Shown here: one piece after another, positions 5,512 to 32,135 of the stretch
Position numbering within the stretch: position 1 is the stretch's first letter
Layout of the letters: the number at the start of each line of letters is the position of its first letter
Source: Sphingobium sp. CCH11-B1
Lineage (GTDB): Bacteria; Pseudomonadota; Alphaproteobacteria; Sphingomonadales; Sphingomonadaceae
Assembly: GCF_001556865.1 (NCBI RefSeq)
Contig: NZ_LSJY01000127.1
Span: 1-39,013, forward strand
Reading direction: 5' to 3'
Length of the DNA stretch: 39,013 bases
Notes under the pieces: generated by a model
The model's input: only the letters and a program-made list of their open reading frames with translations
Told to the model about the DNA's origin: nothing
Database searches by the model: none
Made by a program: the position numbers and the translations under genes

Positions 5512-6864
5512 TTATTTGCCGCCCGTCTTTCGCGGGGCCGGCGTCGCCTGCGCCAGCGCCGCGCCGGGCGTGCTCGCCAGGCGGGAGATGGTCTTGAGCG
5601 CATAGTCGAGCTGGAAGTCCTCGATCCCCTTCTTCTTCAAATCCTCGGCCGACATGGTGAAGCGCGGATCGTCCTTCGCATCCTCCTCCAACGCCTTGTC
5701 GTCGGTCTTGATCTCGTTGATGAGGTGACGGCGCAGGTCGCTTTCGCGGAATTTCGGCCGATCCTTGTAATCGGGATCGCTGAGCTGGGGCACGCGGATG
5801 TCGGGCTGGATGCCGCCTTCCTGCACGCTGCGGCCCGATGGCGTGAAGTAGCGGGCGGTGGTGAGCTTCAATGCGGTGGTGTTGCTGAGCGGCAGCATGG
5901 TCTGGACCGATCCCTTGCCGAAGCTGCGTTCGCCCATCACCAGCGCGCGGTGCTGGTCCTGCAGCGCCCCAGCCACGATTTCGGAGGCGGAGGCGGACCC
6001 CGCATCGACCAGCACGATGACCGGCAGCCCCTTCGCGTCGTCGCCGGGCTTGGCATAATAGCGTTCGACATCGCCCTTGTTGCGGCCGCGCTGCGACACG
6101 ATCTCGCCGCGTTCCAGGAAGGCGTCGCTGACGCTCACCGCCTCGTCCAGAAGGCCGCCGGGGTTGGAGCGCAGGTCGAGCACATAGCCGGTGGGCTTGT
6201 GGCCCAGGCTCTTGTCGATGCTGCGGATCGCCTGGCGCACGTCCGCCCCGGTGTTGGCCGAGAAGCTGACGATATTGATGACGCCGATGCCGTTCTTCAC
6301 CTCCCACTTCACGGGCTTGAGCTGAATGATCTCGCGCGTGAGGGTGAGGTCGATGGGCTTGTCGCGCCCCGCACGGACGATGGTGAGCTTGATGGAGGTG
6401 CCGGGCGCCCCGCGCATCTTGTCCACCGCCTCGTCCAGCGTGCCGCCATAGATGAGCTGGCCGTCGATATGGGTGATGAAGTCACCCGCCTTGATCCCCG
6501 CGCGCCAGGCGGGGGTATCCTGCGTCGGGGCGATCACCTTGACCGCGCCATCCTCCTGCGTGACGGAGAGGCCAAGGCCGCCATAGCTGCCCTCCGTCTG
6601 GGTGCGCAAATTCTGGAAATCGCGCGCGTCGAGGAAGCTCGAATGCGGGTCGAGGCTGGCGAGCATGCCGTCGATCGCGCCCTTGATCAGCTTTTCGTCA
6701 TCGACCTTTTCCACATAGTCGCTGCGGACCTTCTGGAACACGTCCATGAATTCATCGAGCGCCTTGTAGCTCGACGCCTCCCCATCGGCGAGCGCCGCGG
6801 TGGTGGCCGGGATGAGCGCAAGCGCCCCGAGCGCCAGCGCGCCCTGGAGGAAGGTGGATTTCAT
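5512..6864 (-). CDS. ctpA: Carboxy-terminal processing protease, S41 family
   Basis: A 450-residue periplasmic Ser/Lys protease. In order: signal peptide (residues 1-26), an N-terminal helical region, a PDZ domain (about 90-165, with YGGLGLSV), the S41 core, and a Pro/Ala-rich tail. The catalytic Ser292 lies in GSASASEIVAGAL and Lys317 in GERSFGKGS, 25 residues apart as in characterised CtpA enzymes. Such proteases trim C-termini or clear periplasmic proteins and often act on cell-wall hydrolase regulation. The start at 6864 has AGGAAAG close upstream. ATGs at 6885 and 6918 are possible but would add a charged extension before the signal peptide. The gene directly follows the EnvC-like gene, a common alphaproteobacterial order. 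Confidence 0.93.
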   Translation of the reverse strand: MKSTFLQGALALGALALIPATTAALADGEASSYKALDEFMDVFQKVRSDYVEKVDDEKLIKGAIDGMLASLDPHSSFLDARDFQNLRTQTEGSYGGLGLSVTQEDGAVKVIAPTQDTPAWRAGIKAGDFITHIDGQLIYGGTLDEAVDKMRGAPGTSIKLTIVRAGRDKPIDLTLTREIIQLKPVKWEVKNGIGVINIVSFSANTGADVRQAIRSIDKSLGHKPTGYVLDLRSNPGGLLDEAVSVSDAFLERGEIVSQRGRNKGDVERYYAKPGDDAKGLPVIVLVDAGSASASEIVAGALQDQHRALVMGERSFGKGSVQTMLPLSNTTALKLTTARYFTPSGRSVQEGGIQPDIRVPQLSDPDYKDRPKFRESDLRRHLINEIKTDDKALEEDAKDDPRFTMSAEDLKKKGIEDFQLDYALKTISRLASTPGAALAQATPAPRKTGGK

Positions 6865-19441: not shown

Positions 19442-20029
19442 ATGGCCTATGCTGACCACTCGCAAGGATCGAGTCGCACGATATCGATCGTCATCGTCGC
19501 CCTGATTCACGCTGTTCTCGGCTATGCCTTCGTCACCGGTCTTGGCATGAAATATGTCAAAAAGGCGGCGGAACAGCTGAACGTGATCGACGTGAAAGAG
19601 GAACCGCCGCCACCCGACGAGGAGCCGCCGCCGCCGCCGCCAGACCAACCGGTCGGGACGCCGCCGCCGGTGTTCAACCCGGTTCCGGTCGCTGCGCCGC
19701 CGCCGCCGCCGGCTCCGCCCCCGCCGCCCGTCGCCGCCACCCGCGCCTCGCCGCGCGGCGCGCCGGGAAGCTGGCTCAGCGATGCCGACTATCCGAGCCG
19801 CGCGCAGCGCGAAGAGCGTTCGGGTACCGCCGGATTCCGCCTGGAAATCGGCGCGGACGGTCGGGTGACCAACTGCACCATCACCTCTTCGACCGGCCAT
19901 GCCGACCTCGACGAGGCGACCTGCCGCCTGCTGCCGCGCCGTGCGCGCTTCAAGCCGGCGACGGGCAGCGATGGGCAGCCGATGGCCGACACCTATAATG
20001 GCCGCATCACCTGGCGCCTGCCGGAATAA
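19442..20029 (+). CDS. tonB: Energy transducer TonB
   Basis: A 195-residue protein with a single N-terminal membrane anchor (ISIVIVALIHAVLGYAFV; conserved His). A proline-rich periplasmic spacer follows (about 55-100, runs of PPPP and acidic PDEE). The C-terminal TonB domain includes YPSRAQREERSGTAGFRLEIG and ends RITWRLPE. It passes energy from the ExbB-ExbD motor to outer-membrane receptors. AAGGAG lies 12 bases upstream of the start. It leads the tonB-exbB-exbD-exbD cluster. Confidence 0.95.
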   Translation: MAYADHSQGSSRTISIVIVALIHAVLGYAFVTGLGMKYVKKAAEQLNVIDVKEEPPPPDEEPPPPPPDQPVGTPPPVFNPVPVAAPPPPPAPPPPPVAATRASPRGAPGSWLSDADYPSRAQREERSGTAGFRLEIGADGRVTNCTITSSTGHADLDEATCRLLPRRARFKPATGSDGQPMADTYNGRITWRLPE

Positions 20030-20037
20030 TCGAAATC

Positions 20038-20063
20038 GGGCGGGCGCGCGCCGGACGCCGCCC
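20038..20063 (+). repeat. Short GC hairpin between tonB and exbB
   Basis: GGGCGG (20038-20043) pairs with CCGCCC (20058-20063) in the 71-base gap after tonB. The stem is only six base pairs and has no T-tract. It could stabilise or attenuate the transcript. Weak evidence. Confidence 0.25.
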
Positions 20064-20100
20064 CGTCTAGCTTGATCTCATTGAGAGGGAAGTCTTGAAC

Positions 20101-20856
20101 ATGTTGATGTATCTCGCAGCTGCGGCTCCCAAGCCGGAAAACCCCTATGGCCTTATGGAAGCGCTGGAGCAGGGCGGCACGATCGCCTGGACCGTCTTCA
20201 TCATCCTGTGCGCCATGTCGGTCGGTACCTTCTACATCCTGTTCACCAAGCTGATCGAACAGCAGAAGGTGATCAGTCAGGGCAAGAAGGTCCGCGCGAC
20301 CTTCTGGCGCGCCGGTTCGCTGAAGGAAGCGTCCGCCAAGCTGGAAAAGAACTCGGCCTACAAGCAGATCGTCGACGACGGCATCAAGGCCCAGGAAGAG
20401 CATGGCAAGCTGAAGGATCCGGTCGAAGCGCATGACTGGCTGCACGGCTCGCTGGCGCGCTCGGAAGCCGCGATCAACTCGTCGCTGAACGGCGGCCTGG
20501 CGTTCCTCGCCACCGTGGGTTCGACCTCGCCGTTCATCGGTCTGTTCGGTACGGTTATCGGCATCTACCGCGCGCTCATCAAGATCGGCGCTGCCGGTCA
20601 GGCATCGATCGACGCCGTCGCCGGCCCGGTCGGTGAAGCTCTGATCATGACCGCGCTCGGTCTGGCGGTCGCCGTTCCCGCGGTGCTTGCCTACAACTTC
20701 CTGCAGCGCCGCAACAAGGCGATCTCGGAGCAGCTGAACGGCTTCACCGTCGACCTGCTGGCCTATCTGGTTTCGGACGGCGCCGTGAAGCCGACCGTTG
20801 CCCCGGCCGTCGCCGTGCCGGCCGCCAAGCCGGCCGCTGCGCCGACCAAGGCCTGA
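20101..20856 (+). CDS. exbB: MotA/TolQ/ExbB proton channel family protein
   Basis: A 251-residue inner-membrane subunit of the TonB motor. Three membrane helices are visible: TIAWTVFIILCAMSVGTFYIL, then a pair in FLATVGSTSPFIGLFGTVIGIY and ALIMTALGLAVAVPAVLAYNFL, with the conserved Thr and Pro residues. The C-terminus is Ala/Pro/Lys-rich. GAGAGGGA precedes the start. ATG 20101 is chosen; TTG 20095 is two codons earlier and sits too close to that RBS. It is followed by a 143-base gap with a strong hairpin before exbD1. Confidence 0.94.
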   Translation: MLMYLAAAAPKPENPYGLMEALEQGGTIAWTVFIILCAMSVGTFYILFTKLIEQQKVISQGKKVRATFWRAGSLKEASAKLEKNSAYKQIVDDGIKAQEEHGKLKDPVEAHDWLHGSLARSEAAINSSLNGGLAFLATVGSTSPFIGLFGTVIGIYRALIKIGAAGQASIDAVAGPVGEALIMTALGLAVAVPAVLAYNFLQRRNKAISEQLNGFTVDLLAYLVSDGAVKPTVAPAVAVPAAKPAAAPTKA

Positions 20857-20882
20857 TCGGTCTCAGGACGCCGGTTGCGGGA

Positions 20883-20907
20883 CCGGGCGGCGGCTGCGAC
20901 CGCCCGG
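20883..20907 (+). repeat. Hairpin between exbB and exbD1
   Basis: Perfect eight-base arms CCGGGCGG (20883-20890) and CCGCCCGG (20900-20907) with a nine-base loop. No T-tract follows. The likely role is transcript processing or stabilisation of the exbB part of the message, which would raise ExbB over ExbD. This is inferred from position only. Confidence 0.45.
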
Positions 20908-20999
20908 CTCCCCGACCGACTAAGGCCCCCGCACCCTTTCGGCCTGGCGCCACCAGGTCATGACGGGGCGCCAACGACACCAAGGTTAGGATAGTATCA

Positions 21000-21488
21000 A
21001 TGGCAATGAGTGTTGGCTCCGACGGCGGTGACGACAAGCCGATGTCCGACATCAACACGACGCCGCTCGTCGACGTCATGCTGGTGTTGCTCATCATCTT
21101 TCTCATCGCGGTCCCGGTCGTCGTCCAGACGGTCGATCTGCAGCTTCCCAAGGTGGCGTTCGAGCCGACCACGACGAAGCCGGAAAATGTGTCCCTCTCG
21201 GTCACCACGGCTGCGGACGGCAGCTGCGCGGTGTTCTGGGGCATGACCCCGGTCAATTCGAGCGACTTGCTCGACCGCGCCGTCGCCAAGCTCGAAGCGG
21301 ACATCAAGAAGGCGGGTGGCGTCGAAAATCTGACGCCGGAAGACCTGCCCGAAGTGCATATCCGCGGCGACATCAACACCCCCTATCGGTGCATCGGCGG
21401 CACCATCTACACGATGCAGCGCGCCGGTTTCCCGAAGGTGGGCTTCATTTCCGAGCCGGAACCCGGTTCGGGCACCGTCCGCCTCTGA
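21000..21488 (+). CDS. exbD: Biopolymer transporter ExbD (first copy)
   Basis: A 162-residue protein with one N-terminal membrane helix preceded by DINTTPLVDVMLVLLIIF, carrying the conserved Asp that conducts protons. The periplasmic domain is longer than in the second copy and contains two cysteines (DGSCAVFWG and PYRCIGGTIY) that could form a disulfide. AGGA lies before the start. Like the next gene it begins MAMS, showing that the two are duplicates. Confidence 0.93.
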   Translation: MAMSVGSDGGDDKPMSDINTTPLVDVMLVLLIIFLIAVPVVVQTVDLQLPKVAFEPTTTKPENVSLSVTTAADGSCAVFWGMTPVNSSDLLDRAVAKLEADIKKAGGVENLTPEDLPEVHIRGDINTPYRCIGGTIYTMQRAGFPKVGFISEPEPGSGTVRL

Positions 21489-21513
21489 TCGGCCCGCATA
21501 AGGAGTATCCGCA

Positions 21514-21936
21514 ATGGCTATGAGCGCCGGCCGCGATGACGGCGAACCGATGGTGGAAATGAACACGACGCCGTTGATCGACGTCATGCTCGTTCTCCTC
21601 ATCATGTTCATCATCACCATTCCGATCCAGACCCACGCGGTGAAGATCGACTTGCCGCAGAACGCGCCGCCTACGGACAGCGTGATCGACCCGGTCAAGA
21701 ACAAGGTCGCGATCGACGCCGGTGGCGTCATCACCTGGAACGGATCGCCGATCGACCTGCTGACCCTGCGTCAGTATCTGCAGCAGTCGCTGCGCCTGCC
21801 AGTCGAGCCGGAACTCCAGTTCCAGCCCAACGCCGCGACCCGTTATGTGGTCGTTGACGAGGTGCTGGCAGAGGTCAAGCGCGCAGGCGTGACCAAGCTG
21901 GGTTTCGTCGGCAATGAACAATATGGCAATTTCTGA
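21514..21936 (+). CDS. Biopolymer transporter ExbD (second copy)
   Basis: A 140-residue ExbD. The membrane helix follows EMNTTPLIDVMLVLLIMFIITI with the conserved proton-carrying Asp. The periplasmic domain ends LGFVGNEQYGNF and lacks the cysteines of the first copy. AAGGAG lies upstream. It is the last gene of the TonB cluster; a terminator follows at 22027. Confidence 0.93.
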   Translation: MAMSAGRDDGEPMVEMNTTPLIDVMLVLLIMFIITIPIQTHAVKIDLPQNAPPTDSVIDPVKNKVAIDAGGVITWNGSPIDLLTLRQYLQQSLRLPVEPELQFQPNAATRYVVVDEVLAEVKRAGVTKLGFVGNEQYGNF

Positions 21937-22555: not shown

Positions 22556-24356
22556 TCAGGCGGCGGGCATATCCTGGAACTGGAGGCTGGCGAGCCGGGC
22601 ATAGAGGCCGCTCCGCGCGACCAGCGCGTTATGGTCGCCTTCCTCGACGATGCGGCCTTCATCCATGACGATGATGCGGTCGGCGGCGCGGACCGTGGCG
22701 AGCCGGTGGGCGATGACGATGGTGGAGCGTCCCCGCACCAGCCGGGCCAGCGCGTCCTGCACCAGTCGTTCCGATTCGGCGTCGAGCGCAGACGTGGCCT
22801 CGTCCAGCAGCAGCAGCGGGGCGTCCCGCAGCAAGGCGCGGGCGATGGACAGGCGCTGCCGCTGCCCGCCTGAAAGGCGCGCGCCGCCCTCCCCCAGATA
22901 GGTGTCGAGTCCCTGCGGGAGGGCGCGCAGGAAGGAGTCCGCGTTTGCGGCGCGGGCGGCGTCCCAGACCTGATCGTCCGTGGCGTCCCACCGGCCGTAG
23001 CGCAGATTGTCCCGCGCCGAGGCGGCAAAGATCACGCTGTCCTGCGGGACCATGGCCATCATCGCGCGCAAGTCGGCGGGGTCCGCCTCCGGAAGCGGAA
23101 CGCCGTTCAGGCTGACGACGCCGCTGTCGGGATCGTAGAAGCGCTGCGCGAGCTGGATCAGCGTCGATTTACCCGCTCCGGACGGCCCGACGATAGCGAC
23201 GGTTTCGCCAGGGTTCACGGCAAAGGACAGGCCGTGCAGCGCCGGCTGGTCGGGGCGGGTCGGATAGTGGAAATGGACATTGTCGAACCGCAGCAGCGCG
23301 CCGCGATCGCCGGCCGGGATTGGCCGGGGGCTGGCGGGCGCGAGGATGTCGGGCGTAGCGGTCATCAACTCGTCCAGCCGGCTGGCGGCGCCCGCGCCCC
23401 GCAACAGGTCGCCCCAGCTCTCCGACAGGGAACCGAACGCGCCCGCGACCAGCCCGCCGGTCAGCACGAAGGCGGCGATGCTGCCGCCCGACAAGGAGCC
23501 GGCCGCGACGTCAAGCGCGCCCCGCCACATGACAGCGGTGATCGATCCGAAGACGAGCGCGATCACCACGGCGGTCATCAGCGCGCGCAGCCGGATGCGA
23601 GCGCGGGCGGTGGCGAAACCGCGCTCCACCGTCGCGTCGAAGCGTCCTGCTTCCCGCTTTTCCTGCCCGAAAGCCTGCACGATCTTCATCGCGCCCAGCA
23701 CTTCGCTAGTGACGGTCCCGACATCGGCCAGCCGGTCCTGGCTGGCACGGGAGAGGCCGCGTACGCGGCGGCCAAGGCCGATGAGAACGACGAGGATGAC
23801 CGGGATGCCAAGCAGCAGCAGCGCCGCGAGCTTGGGCGCCAGTACGAAAAGATAGATGAGCCCGCCTATCCCCGTGACGAGGTTGCGCAGCGCGACCGAC
23901 ACGGTCGAGCCGACAACCTGCTCCACAATGGCGGTGTCCGCGGTCATGCGGGACGCAATTTCGGACGGGCGGTTTTCCTCGAAGAAGCGGGGCGCTTGGC
24001 GCAGGAGATTGGCCTGCGTCGCGCTGCGGATGTCTGCGACGACGCGCTCGCCCAGCCAGGACACGAAATAGAAGCGCAGCGCGCTGGCGATCGCCAGCAC
24101 GACCACGATCATCAGCAGATATTCGAACCAGCGGTTGATGTCTCCGCCGCCCATGAAGCCGCGATCGATCACCAGTCGGAAACCGCTGGGAATGCCCAGC
24201 GTCGCTGCCGATGACACGATGAGGGCGGCGAGCGCTGCGGCGATGCGGCCGGGATAGTGGCGGAGATGTGTATAAGAGACACCGCCACAACATGCCCAGG
24301 CTGCCCAGTGCGGGACGGTCCTTCAAGGGCGGCTGGCTTTGCGGATCGTCCTGCAT
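22556..24356 (-). CDS. ABC exporter (permease-ATPase); frame broken by adapter remnant at 24261-24281
   Basis: A type I ABC half-transporter of the MsbA/ABCB class. The ATPase part has Walker A (GPSGAGKST), Q-loop (MVPQDS), signature LSGGQRQR and Walker B (LLLLDEATSALD). The membrane part keeps five or six helices. The N-terminal piece, starting MQDDPQSQPPLKDRP at 24356, and the main frame (readable from 24259 downward as HYPGRIAAALAAL) are in different frames, separated by 22 bases that are mostly Nextera adapter. The real gene is almost certainly intact, at roughly 600 residues; the few true codons at the join are missing. Substrate unknown: lipid, peptide or drug. Confidence 0.88.
24261..24281. 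other. Illumina Nextera (Tn5 mosaic-end) adapter remnant
   Basis: The plus strand reads CGG followed by AGATGTGTATAAGAGACA. That is 18 of the 19 bases of the synthetic Tn5 mosaic end plus the three preceding bases of the read-2 transposase adapter. The minus-strand translation gives CLLYTSP, a known hallmark of this contamination. The mosaic end is a man-made hybrid of IS50 ends, so it does not occur in wild genomes. It is an assembly artefact, not a mobile element. Confidence 0.95.
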
Positions 24357-24411
24357 GGAAGGCCGCTTAGCAGGGTGCCGCCCCTCCCTCAATGCCTGCA
24401 CCCGGTGGGGC

Positions 24412-25704
24412 TCAGGCGTCGGGCGCGACCGCGTCCGCCCAGCGCATCACCTGCTTTGCGTCGCCCTTGCCGGTAAGGGCATAGGCCATGTCGCCCCTTT
24501 CCCAATAGGCGGTCGTTTCTCCCGCGCGACGGGCCACCAGCGGCGTGCCCTCAGCCGGCGTTTCGGCGCGATCGGCAAACAGGGACAGCGCCTCTCCCTG
24601 GGGCGTGAGGAGGCTCATCGCGACGGCGGGGCTGCCGGGCGACGGGACAAGCTGGACGTCGGTGACGCGCCAGCCCGTTGGCAGCGCCGGCAGGACGATG
24701 CCGGCCGACCTCTCGATTTCCTTGGGATCGAAACGGGCGCTTTCCACCTGCGAGGGCATTGCCTGCCGCAACAGGCCAGCGCGGCGGGACGCGGCCGCTT
24801 CGTCCAGGAAGCTGCTGGCCTGCGCGCTTTGCGGGAATTCGCCCAGTTCGCCGCGCGCGATCCAGCCGGTGGCGACCAGCAAGGCGATGGCGGCGGCGCG
24901 GCCCAGATGCCGCCAGAGCCGGCCATCCTCATTGTCGTTGGCGACAGGCTGGCTGGTATCACGGCGACGGCCCACCAGCGTGCCCTTCGTCCCGTCCTTC
25001 ATCAGGCGGAAGTCGATATGCGGCCAGCGTTGCCGCCAGCGACGCGCCACGAGTCGTTCACCCGGGCGGGCGGCATCGTCCAGCAGCACCACGCCATCGG
25101 GCGACAGGCGTGAAAAAAGGCTGTCGGCCGCGCCCCGCACCAGCGGATGCACGCTCCAGGGCGGACCGTCGATGATAATGAGGTCGATCTGCTCCGGCAA
25201 GTTATCGACGGCATACCAGCGACCGGGCCAGTCCGGGCTTTCCTGCGTCAGCGGGGCGTGGCGGATGTCGACGTCCAGCCCGTGATCCGCCAGCCACCGG
25301 CGCGTGGCGTCGACAAAACCGCCATGCTGGTCGAAGCTGTGCAGCCGCCCGCCGCCATGGCGTTGCAGTGCGCGGGCTGCGACCAGCGATGATGCGCCCG
25401 CCCCCAGTTCGACCACATGAGCCGGGCGAAGCCGCACGATTTCGCGGACGATGTGGCGCAGGAATCCGACATCGGCCTTCCAGCTGCCAAGGTGCGGCAG
25501 CGCGTCGTGGGGCAGGCCGAGTTCGTCCAGCAGGGCGCGCTTGTCGGCCGGGCGGCCGCCCGACAGGCTGGCGAGCAGCCAGGGCCAGCCGATCGCGCCG
25601 AAGCCGATCCTCCACGCGGTGTCGGACAGGCGACGGGACAGGTCGCCCGTTGCCTCATGGGCTTCGCTGAGCGGGAGAAAGCCGGTAAGCTCGCGGGATG
25701 TCAC
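24412..25704 (-). CDS. Class I SAM methyltransferase fused to membrane anti-sigma-like domain
   Basis: A 430-residue protein in two parts. Residues 1-245 are a class I SAM-dependent methyltransferase with motif I VVELGAGAS (97-105), an acidic loop near 125, and DLIIIDGPP (174-182). After a short linker (PVANDNEDG) comes one membrane helix (269-285). The exported C-terminal region (about 290-430) contains GWRVTDVQLVPSPG, LSLFADRAETPAEG and AYWERGDMAYALTG. This tail resembles, from memory, the periplasmic part of sphingomonad transmembrane anti-sigma factors. The usual N-terminal anti-sigma domain is absent, and no ECF sigma gene is near. Methyl acceptor unknown. Confidence 0.8.
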   Translation of the reverse strand: MTSRELTGFLPLSEAHEATGDLSRRLSDTAWRIGFGAIGWPWLLASLSGGRPADKRALLDELGLPHDALPHLGSWKADVGFLRHIVREIVRLRPAHVVELGAGASSLVAARALQRHGGGRLHSFDQHGGFVDATRRWLADHGLDVDIRHAPLTQESPDWPGRWYAVDNLPEQIDLIIIDGPPWSVHPLVRGAADSLFSRLSPDGVVLLDDAARPGERLVARRWRQRWPHIDFRLMKDGTKGTLVGRRRDTSQPVANDNEDGRLWRHLGRAAAIALLVATGWIARGELGEFPQSAQASSFLDEAAASRRAGLLRQAMPSQVESARFDPKEIERSAGIVLPALPTGWRVTDVQLVPSPGSPAVAMSLLTPQGEALSLFADRAETPAEGTPLVARRAGETTAYWERGDMAYALTGKGDAKQVMRWADAVAPDA

Positions 25705-28432: not shown

Positions 28433-29440
28433 TCAGGCCGCGACCGCAAGCGGCACGCAACCGGCGAGGGCATCGAGAAAGGCGATGAGGCCCCGTTCCT
28501 CGCGCGAGAGATATCGGGTGCGGCGCGGCAGGCGCAGCCCTGCGCGCCATTCGTCCTGCCCGTCATGGCAAAGCGCGATGAGGGCCGGGTGGACGTAGCT
28601 TTTGCGACTGATCGCGGGCGTGTTGCCCAGCGCCTGCGCCACCGGCTCCAGCAGTTGCTTGAGCGTGACGTGCCCTTCGACCAGCGTTTCGAAGGCGATG
28701 GTGGTCGCTCCCCAGGTGCGGAAATGCTTGGCGGTGAAGGGGCCTCCCATCGCTTGCGCGATATAGGCGTTGACGTCGCTGGAGGTGATGGGGCGGGGAT
28801 CGCCATCCTCGTCCAGATATTGGAACAGATGCTGGCCGGGCAGATCCTGCACCTGCCGCACGAAGCGAAGCAGGCGCGCGTCGGTGATCGTCTGCTGCTG
28901 TTCCTTGCCCGACTTGGCGCGAAAGCGGAGCGTCAGCGATCGACCGTTGAGGTCGATATGGCGGCGGCGCAGCGTTGTCGCGCCGAAGCTCTTGTTGGTG
29001 GTGGCATAATGTTCGTTGCCCACGCGCAGCTTGGCGAGATCGAGCAGGCGCACCACGGCGGCAATGGTGCGATCCTTGCGCAGGCCGCGCTTCGACAGGT
29101 CGCTTTCCAGGCGTGCGCGCAGCTTTGGCAGGGCGCGGCCGAAATCGGGGCAGCCGGCATATTTTTCCGCCTCCCGCGCGGCGCGGAAATCGGGATGGTA
29201 GCGATATTGGCGGCGGTTGCGGTCGTCATAGCCCACGGCCTGGATATGGCCCCAGGGCGAAGGACAGAACCAGCAGTCATGATAGGCCGGGGGCAGGGCG
29301 ATGCGGTTCAGCCGGTCTATCTCGTCCCGATCGGTGATGCGCGCGCCGTCCGGGCCATAATAGGCCCAGCCGCGCTTGAGGGCGCGTCGCGTGATGCCGG
29401 GGATGCTGTGGTCCGCATGGGTGACGGTCTGTTGGGGCAT
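28433..29440 (-). CDS. DNA topoisomerase IB (bacterial, poxvirus-like)
   Basis: A 335-residue type IB topoisomerase that relaxes supercoils through a 3'-phosphotyrosine link. Catalytic residues can be placed at Arg139 (KLRVGNEHY), Lys176 (RAKSGK), His239/Arg241 (KHFRTWGAT) and Tyr282 (SRKSYVHP). The N-terminal domain has WAYYGPDGARITD and CPSPWGHIQAVG. The start at 29440 has GAAGGA six bases upstream; upstream ATGs at 29455 and 29476 lack this. Confidence 0.95.
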   Translation of the reverse strand: MPQQTVTHADHSIPGITRRALKRGWAYYGPDGARITDRDEIDRLNRIALPPAYHDCWFCPSPWGHIQAVGYDDRNRRQYRYHPDFRAAREAEKYAGCPDFGRALPKLRARLESDLSKRGLRKDRTIAAVVRLLDLAKLRVGNEHYATTNKSFGATTLRRRHIDLNGRSLTLRFRAKSGKEQQQTITDARLLRFVRQVQDLPGQHLFQYLDEDGDPRPITSSDVNAYIAQAMGGPFTAKHFRTWGATTIAFETLVEGHVTLKQLLEPVAQALGNTPAISRKSYVHPALIALCHDGQDEWRAGLRLPRRTRYLSREERGLIAFLDALAGCVPLAVAA

Positions 29441-29546
29441 GTCTGTCCTTCTCATGCCCGAAAACCCGCCGTTCATCGCTTCGTTCCGAAACCTTGGCGC
29501 GGGCTTGGCCGTTACAGGGCCTTCCGCCTAACCCAGGAGAGTTGCC

Positions 29547-30774: not shown

Positions 30775-32135
30775 GCCGGCAGTCCGTTCCGCGCGGTCAG
30801 GGCAGCGGCGAGCTGTTCCCGCGCCGCCGCCTTGCGCCGGCGCGTGAGATAGGTGTCGAGGCCGATCTGCAGCGCCAGCATCATGAAGATGAAGGGCTGA
30901 TAGGCGATGCCGACGAACAGCGATCCGATCATATAGACGACATGCCCTTGCTGGAGCGCCAGGGCGTAGGGCGCGATCCAGGCTTCGTCCGGCTTGTCCG
31001 ACCGCCGCCAGGCGCGGCGGATCATTTCGGTGCGGATGAAGCAGATGCCGTGGATCAGCGCCCAGATGAAGAAGCCGAAATAGCCCTGTTCCCCCAGCAT
31101 TTCGAAATAGGCGCTGTGATAGGCGCGACCCCGGTCGGTGACGATGCGCCGCTCGATCCGCGCGCCGCCCGAATCGACGATGGTTTCCTGCGTGAAATAG
31201 CTGAAGCTGTTCTGGAGATAATTGTCGAAGCCGCCACCGCCCGGGTGCGTTTTCACATAGTCGAGCGTCCACATCCACACCGCGACGCGAGTGGAGGCGC
31301 TTTCGTCGCCCTGATGGTTTTCGATCGTCTGCATCCGCTGCGTAAAGCTGGCGGGCAGGAAGGGGACAGACACGAGCGCGCCCAGCAGAAGGAGCGGCCC
31401 ATAGACGAACTTGCGCTTCGACCGCAGCAGCATCATGCCCGCCAGGATGACGAGGCAGACGAGGCCGGTGCGCGCTTCGGTGCCGATGGGCATCAGCATG
31501 CAGGCGAAACAGAGGCACCAGGCAAAGCCCTTCACGCGCCAGTCGGGCGGGAAGATGGTGCCATGCTTCGTCAGCCACAGGATCAGCGGAATCAGCGAGA
31601 TCGCGACGCAGGAAATGATGCTGCCTTCGTACAGGCCGCTGTTATTTTCCACCATCAGGTTGAGCACGCCGTAACCGCCGCCCGACAGCGCCGTCTTCAT
31701 GCCGCCATTGATGATGATGGTGCTGGCGCACAGGATCATGAAGAGGGTGAGCGCCTCGATCCGCAGGCGGGTGCGCAGCACCAGCGGCAGGAAGATGCCC
31801 GCGATGATCGCTTTCCACACCCAGTTCCATTTGGTGAGCGCCTCGACCGGGAAATCGGCGTGGAGCGTCGTGTAGCCGCACCAGGCGACAAGCACGAGCA
31901 TCAGGCCCTGACGGACAGAGAATCGGCAGTCCTTCTTGTCGTCCACCAGCAGCCACGACCCCACCATCAGTGCGAAGGCAATGGCCGAGATCGGGATGGA
32001 ATTGAGCAGGACATAGGACAGCCGCTGCGGCGAGACGATGTCGATATAGGCGTAGAGCGCGACCAGCAGGAACGGCCGGCGCAGCCCCATGAGGCCGAAC
32101 AGCCCGAGGAAGGCGAGGAAGAAGAGGTCACGCAT
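30771..32135 (-). CDS. Putative O-glycosylation ligase, exosortase A-associated
   Basis: A 454-residue polytopic protein (about 11-12 helices) of the Wzy/O-antigen-ligase superfamily, exosortase-A-linked branch (TIGR03097/DUF5935 type). Supporting blocks are SPQRLSYVLLNSIP near the start, NNSGLYEG and TEARTGLVCL in the middle, and HSAYFEMLGEQGYFGFFIW, the conserved His-containing loop of ligases. It would transfer lipid-linked glycan to surface protein or polymer. GGAGGAGAA precedes the start. It overlaps the small gene upstream by eight bases and the gene downstream by four. Confidence 0.9.
   Translation of the reverse strand: MRDLFFLAFLGLFGLMGLRRPFLLVALYAYIDIVSPQRLSYVLLNSIPISAIAFALMVGSWLLVDDKKDCRFSVRQGLMLVLVAWCGYTTLHADFPVEALTKWNWVWKAIIAGIFLPLVLRTRLRIEALTLFMILCASTIIINGGMKTALSGGGYGVLNLMVENNSGLYEGSIISCVAISLIPLILWLTKHGTIFPPDWRVKGFAWCLCFACMLMPIGTEARTGLVCLVILAGMMLLRSKRKFVYGPLLLLGALVSVPFLPASFTQRMQTIENHQGDESASTRVAVWMWTLDYVKTHPGGGGFDNYLQNSFSYFTQETIVDSGGARIERRIVTDRGRAYHSAYFEMLGEQGYFGFFIWALIHGICFIRTEMIRRAWRRSDKPDEAWIAPYALALQQGHVVYMIGSLFVGIAYQPFIFMMLALQIGLDTYLTRRRKAAAREQLAAALTARNGLPA

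Follow-up and report, generated by a model that had tools for sequence, protein, structure and literature searches.

The window, a stretch of 39,013 nucleotides, carries on its minus strand at 22556-24356 a gene for an MsbA-related ABC exporter (permease plus ATPase), which in the assembly is split at 24264-24281. The ATG at 24356-24354 is likely the start of the exporter, and the aligned relatives also have ATG at this position. Twenty-five exporter residues follow from it before the interruption, and the remainder continues in another frame. This second part was found as a 553-aa frame (22556-24217, minus strand), opening at an internal GTG at 24217 and containing the domains ABC_membrane (PF00664, 2.1e-43) and ABC_tran (PF00005, 5.2e-32). 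Its best NCBIfam match is TIGR02204 (MsbA_rel), with 758.3 bits versus a cut-off of 780.4 for a frame that is without the first 42 residues and starts at profile position 30. A 231-aa frame on the same strand (23706-24401) runs through the interruption and carries GMLWRCLLYTSPPLS.

Beside the exporter, positions 24412-25704 encode a 430-aa protein with Methyltransf_24 at residues 98-210, the rest having no Pfam or NCBIfam match. According to Pfam, 19442-21936 contains consecutive TonB, ExbB, and two ExbD genes, which form an ordinary TonB energising cluster. A bacterial topoisomerase IB gene (PF21338, PF01028) is located at 28433-29476.

At 24261-24281 on the plus strand lies CGGAGATGTGTATAAGAGACA, which matches the Nextera read-2 adapter at 21 of 21 bases of Tn5ME-B, while the read-1 adapter has 18 bases in common with the same positions. 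A section of PMC4248319 prints these adapters as Tn5ME-A, Tn5ME-B, and Tn5MErev and describes the replacement of the wild-type Tn5 ends by mosaic ends in vitro. The read-through adapter letters are printed in a section of PMC3906532, which adds that post-insert sequence can affect de novo assembly. Within the match, 24264-24281 (plus strand) corresponds to 18 of the 19 bases of the Nextera synthetic Tn5 mosaic end, the terminal G being absent, and was assigned as probable adapter carry-over. The complete 19-base mosaic end, aligned with 24264-24282, shows one mismatch, a C for the terminal G on the plus strand. The expected number of exact chance matches to the 21-mer of either adapter is 2.5e-7 (window, both strands, 67% GC). 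Allowing up to three mismatches, the mosaic-end 19-mer appeared in 0 of 100 shuffles, and 24264-24282 is its sole site in the window. The preliminary description had equated the 21 bases with the Nextera adapter, and our search with the adapter sequence bears this out.

The CGG at 24261-24263 (plus strand) fits the read-2 adapter tail as well as the native codons suggested by the relatives. These three bases could be native, and the letters are the same for either origin. Because CGG is also native-like in the relatives, only the 18 bases at 24264-24281 are unambiguous adapter. This adapter is incomplete at both ends, missing the last G on one side and the tail beyond CGG on the other. Among six sequences tried as other adapters in the window, the longest further exact match comprised only 13 bases, belonging to the TruSeq universal adapter. 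It lies at 31863-31875 within an open 475-aa frame, and we set it aside as a further adapter, taking it as a chance match.

To determine the extent of the damage, we used 80 loci of relatives (67-90% identity), of which 36 (L001-L036) were aligned with the window. The 18-mer of 24264-24281 is present in none of the 80 loci. After a conserved TGG and up to a conserved TAT, the window has 28 bases, versus 15 in each of the 36 aligned relatives. The net gain of 13 bases shifts the reading frame of the exporter. In the window, 18-21 bases separate the two halves of the gene, and the native bases missing between them would number approximately 5 if the adapter comprises 18 bases, or approximately 8 if CGG is also adapter.

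Database proteins provided intact counterparts (the best 120 listed among 8000 scored candidates). The best of these, P0001, has 595 aa and is 99% identical to the 553-aa query. It opens with the same 25 residues, followed by 17 more, and from residue 43 of P0001 onward it aligns with the 553-aa frame, running across the site without adapter-coded residues. P0002 from Sphingobium olei, also 595 aa, is 96% identical. Since both proteins are unbroken, intact copies of the exporter exist. A length of 595 aa was found in 103 of the best 120 proteins, and the others range from 573 to 601 aa. A pattern search detected five residues between W and YP in 117 of the 120 listed proteins; in the remaining three (P0020, P0054, and P0103), a substitution close by prevents the pattern from matching, and inspection by eye showed identical spacing.

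These comparisons bear on several statements of the preliminary description. The adapter was said to lie where the exporter changes frame, in agreement with the 25 residues before it and the rest after it in the other frame. The frameshift was called false, which is very probably correct given the 13 additional bases relative to all aligned relatives and the nearly identical intact protein. Any protein starting at 24217 was dismissed as an artefact; this applies to the start, but not to the sequence itself, which matches residues 43-595 of P0001. As read from the DNA, the 553-aa frame is genuine protein sequence, truncated, with a false start at GTG 24217. Only the 231-aa frame containing CLLYTSP is spurious, as the earlier description had suspected. 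CLLYT occurs in none of the best 120 listed database proteins. A search of open-access full text returned no paper on CLLYTSP, a motif that may still be described outside that scope.

Perfect 7-base inverted arms, GTGGCGG and CCGCCAC (24257-24288), stand flush on either side of the 18 bases. Such arms at equal spacing occur at 7 of 38,982 window positions, and they were noticed post hoc. By a simple test, the longest stem in the 36 aligned relatives was below 4 bases in 17, 4-6 in 18, and 8 in one. Arms of 7 bases are therefore not generally common to the aligned relatives, and the hairpin remains an idea. That GC-rich inverted arms are spots where adapter enters a consensus internally instead of at contig ends, a notion drawn post hoc from one site, appears doubtful to us.

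We next consider adapter carry-over in other sequences. An IMG/VR scan with the 21-mer yielded at least 120 viral stretches, and the 120 listed contain 125 matches. Distances were measured from the outer side of the adapter to the contig end, with contig coordinates applied for the 28 of 120 stretches that were shorter than their contigs. For 123 of the 125 matches in these 120 stretches, this distance is at most 100 bases. The two internal matches are L103 2968-2988 (IMGVR_UViG_3300010216_000012, contig 6413-6433), 607 bases from the contig end, and L149 4954-4974 (IMGVR_UViG_2767802081_000001), 4,699 bases from the contig end; both contigs may be fusions. Twelve further bases of the adapter tail are present in 102 of the 125 matches, and the terminal G of the mosaic end in all 125. 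A mosaic end with a different last base was detected in 8 IMG/VR stretches, in each case at no more than 97 bases from the contig end. The form in the window, without the last G, thus represents a rarer variant, and no IMG/VR match combined an internal position with the absence of this G. In 123 of the 125 listed matches the adapter tail faces the contig end, which identifies the AGACAG side as that of the insert. The start of the exporter (24282 and up) is on the AGACAG side in the window, which makes this the tagmentation side, one base short.

Nine of 5,426 complete E. coli genomes matched the 34-base adapter (E up to 10), and in four of these genomes the match covers 80% or more of the adapter. 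Two of these four matches lie within genes. In NZ_CP069692.1 (E. coli H20 strain MIN6), positions 3167112-3167143 in ybjT are 90.6% identical to query bases 1-32, and the annotation of this complete chromosome gives ybjT a frameshift and an internal stop. The other, at 2277747-2277780 of the complete chromosome NZ_CP054388.1, is in a glycosyltransferase gene that has no pseudogene flag. Adapter-like sequence within genes can thus occur even in finished genomes, flagged or unflagged.

The mosaic end is also employed in laboratory transposons, so that the 18 bases might be a trace of Tn5 mutagenesis, such as a mini-Tn5 mutant, that is really present in the DNA of the organism. In E. coli MG-phbCAB-3-5 and MG-phbCAB-3-6, which to judge by their names may be engineered strains, the adapter query matched at 12 and 16 places, and the top match of each strain covers the mosaic end. 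However, a transposon insertion leaves two ends with cargo between them, whereas the window has only one incomplete end (up to three mismatches), there is no cargo between the gene halves, and the net gain is just 13 bases. Moreover, no transposase family was found in the 10 neighbouring frames scanned. A Tn5 insertion is described in a section of PMC4248319 as producing a 9-bp target duplication. At the site, we found neither two inverted ends, nor cargo, nor such a duplication, and a laboratory insertion is accordingly highly improbable. Natural Tn5 ends are similar to the mosaic end, which would allow an IS50/Tn5 end or another natural insertion. The 18 bases are nevertheless those of the mosaic end, which the same source, in the section concerned, presents as the in vitro substitute for the natural ends. 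The same 10 frames, lacking a transposase family, and the 80 relatives' loci, lacking the motif, also speak against a natural insertion, to which we assign a negligible probability. We rejected both a natural Tn5/IS50 end and a mini-Tn5 scar because there is no second end, no cargo, no duplication, and no transposase family in the frames scanned.

A further possibility is a misjoin in which adapter present on both of two unrelated contigs brought them together. Adapter is often seen at contig ends, so that fusions of this kind are possible, and the internal matches in L149 and L103 demonstrate that internal adapter exists elsewhere. On the other hand, one protein spans the site with just three residues of P0001 unaccounted for, and the genes neighbouring the exporter recur in relatives. 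We searched for these neighbours by tblastn (E up to 1e-5) across the 80 loci. The methyltransferase gene was found in 29 of the 80, where it shares the strand of the exporter and lies upstream of it. A PilZ gene was detected in 34 loci and ExbD in 58, the ExbD match corresponding to the second ExbD gene of 19442-21936. In the 30 matches listed for each, PilZ and ExbD are on the opposite side of the exporter from the methyltransferase. Absences of neighbours mean little in these counts, because the loci extend past the match by no more than 3 kb, and some are shortened by contig ends. In five close relatives (L002, L003, L005, L011, and L024), the methyltransferase was not found and an enolase-superfamily gene adjoins the exporter directly, which is an ordinary difference in gene content. 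Given a gene that is continuous across the site and neighbours that recur, we reject a misjoin of distant pieces, which has scarcely any probability left, and the gene order around 24264-24281 gives us no cause for doubt. The join had been described as suspect, with sequence possibly lost or misjoined; the loss stands, at a handful of bases, and the misjoin does not.

We conclude, with a probability of about 97%, that the 18 (at most 21) adapter bases are an assembly artefact that causes a false frameshift in an ordinary Sphingobium-type ABC exporter. The true genome would presumably lack the 18 bases. A library prepared by Tn5 tagmentation would have contained untrimmed Nextera adapter, which may have entered the consensus through the assembler, through a gap closer, or by way of a chimeric library molecule. 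In the process, about 5 native bases, or at most 8, would have given way to 18 (at most 21) adapter bases, lengthening the sequence by 13 bases. The likeliest path is that a contig end at approximately 24282 ran into adapter and that the extended end was subsequently joined to the end of the neighbouring contig on the strength of a very short match. CGG could have favoured this closure, and the inverted arms of 7 bases may have contributed. Alternatively, the sequence may derive from a chimeric library molecule. Two features count against an artefact, the internal position (2 of the 125 listed IMG/VR matches) and the missing last G. The junction at 24261-24263 is abnormal in that the adapter tail ends after CGG, where the relatives suggest a native CGG. 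A clean junction would place a complete mosaic end beside the insert; the window has no such arrangement, and carry-over does not require one.

The site concerns data hygiene only, being very probably a laboratory artefact and not biology. The exporter should not be called a pseudogene, and neither the start at 24217 nor the CLLYTSP frame should be trusted. The source assembly merits screening for adapter (AGATGTGTATAAGAGACAG).

Compared with known cases of Nextera carry-over in assemblies, the window has the same letters, those of Tn5ME-B/Tn5ME-A, and its AGACA side is taken as the insert side in line with 123 of the 125 IMG/VR matches. It differs in that its adapter is internal, without the last G and without a tail beyond CGG, and in that one gene lies on both sides. 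The ybjT gene of strain MIN6 is similar in carrying adapter-like bases inside a gene annotated as frameshifted. However, the match in ybjT covers more of the adapter, with mismatches, and the role of the adapter in that frameshift is putative. The interrupted gene itself belongs to the same family as the MsbA-related exporters (TIGR02204; PF00664 and PF00005) of Sphingobium and its kin, of which 103 of the 120 listed are 595 aa long, whereas the gene in the window is split after residue 25.
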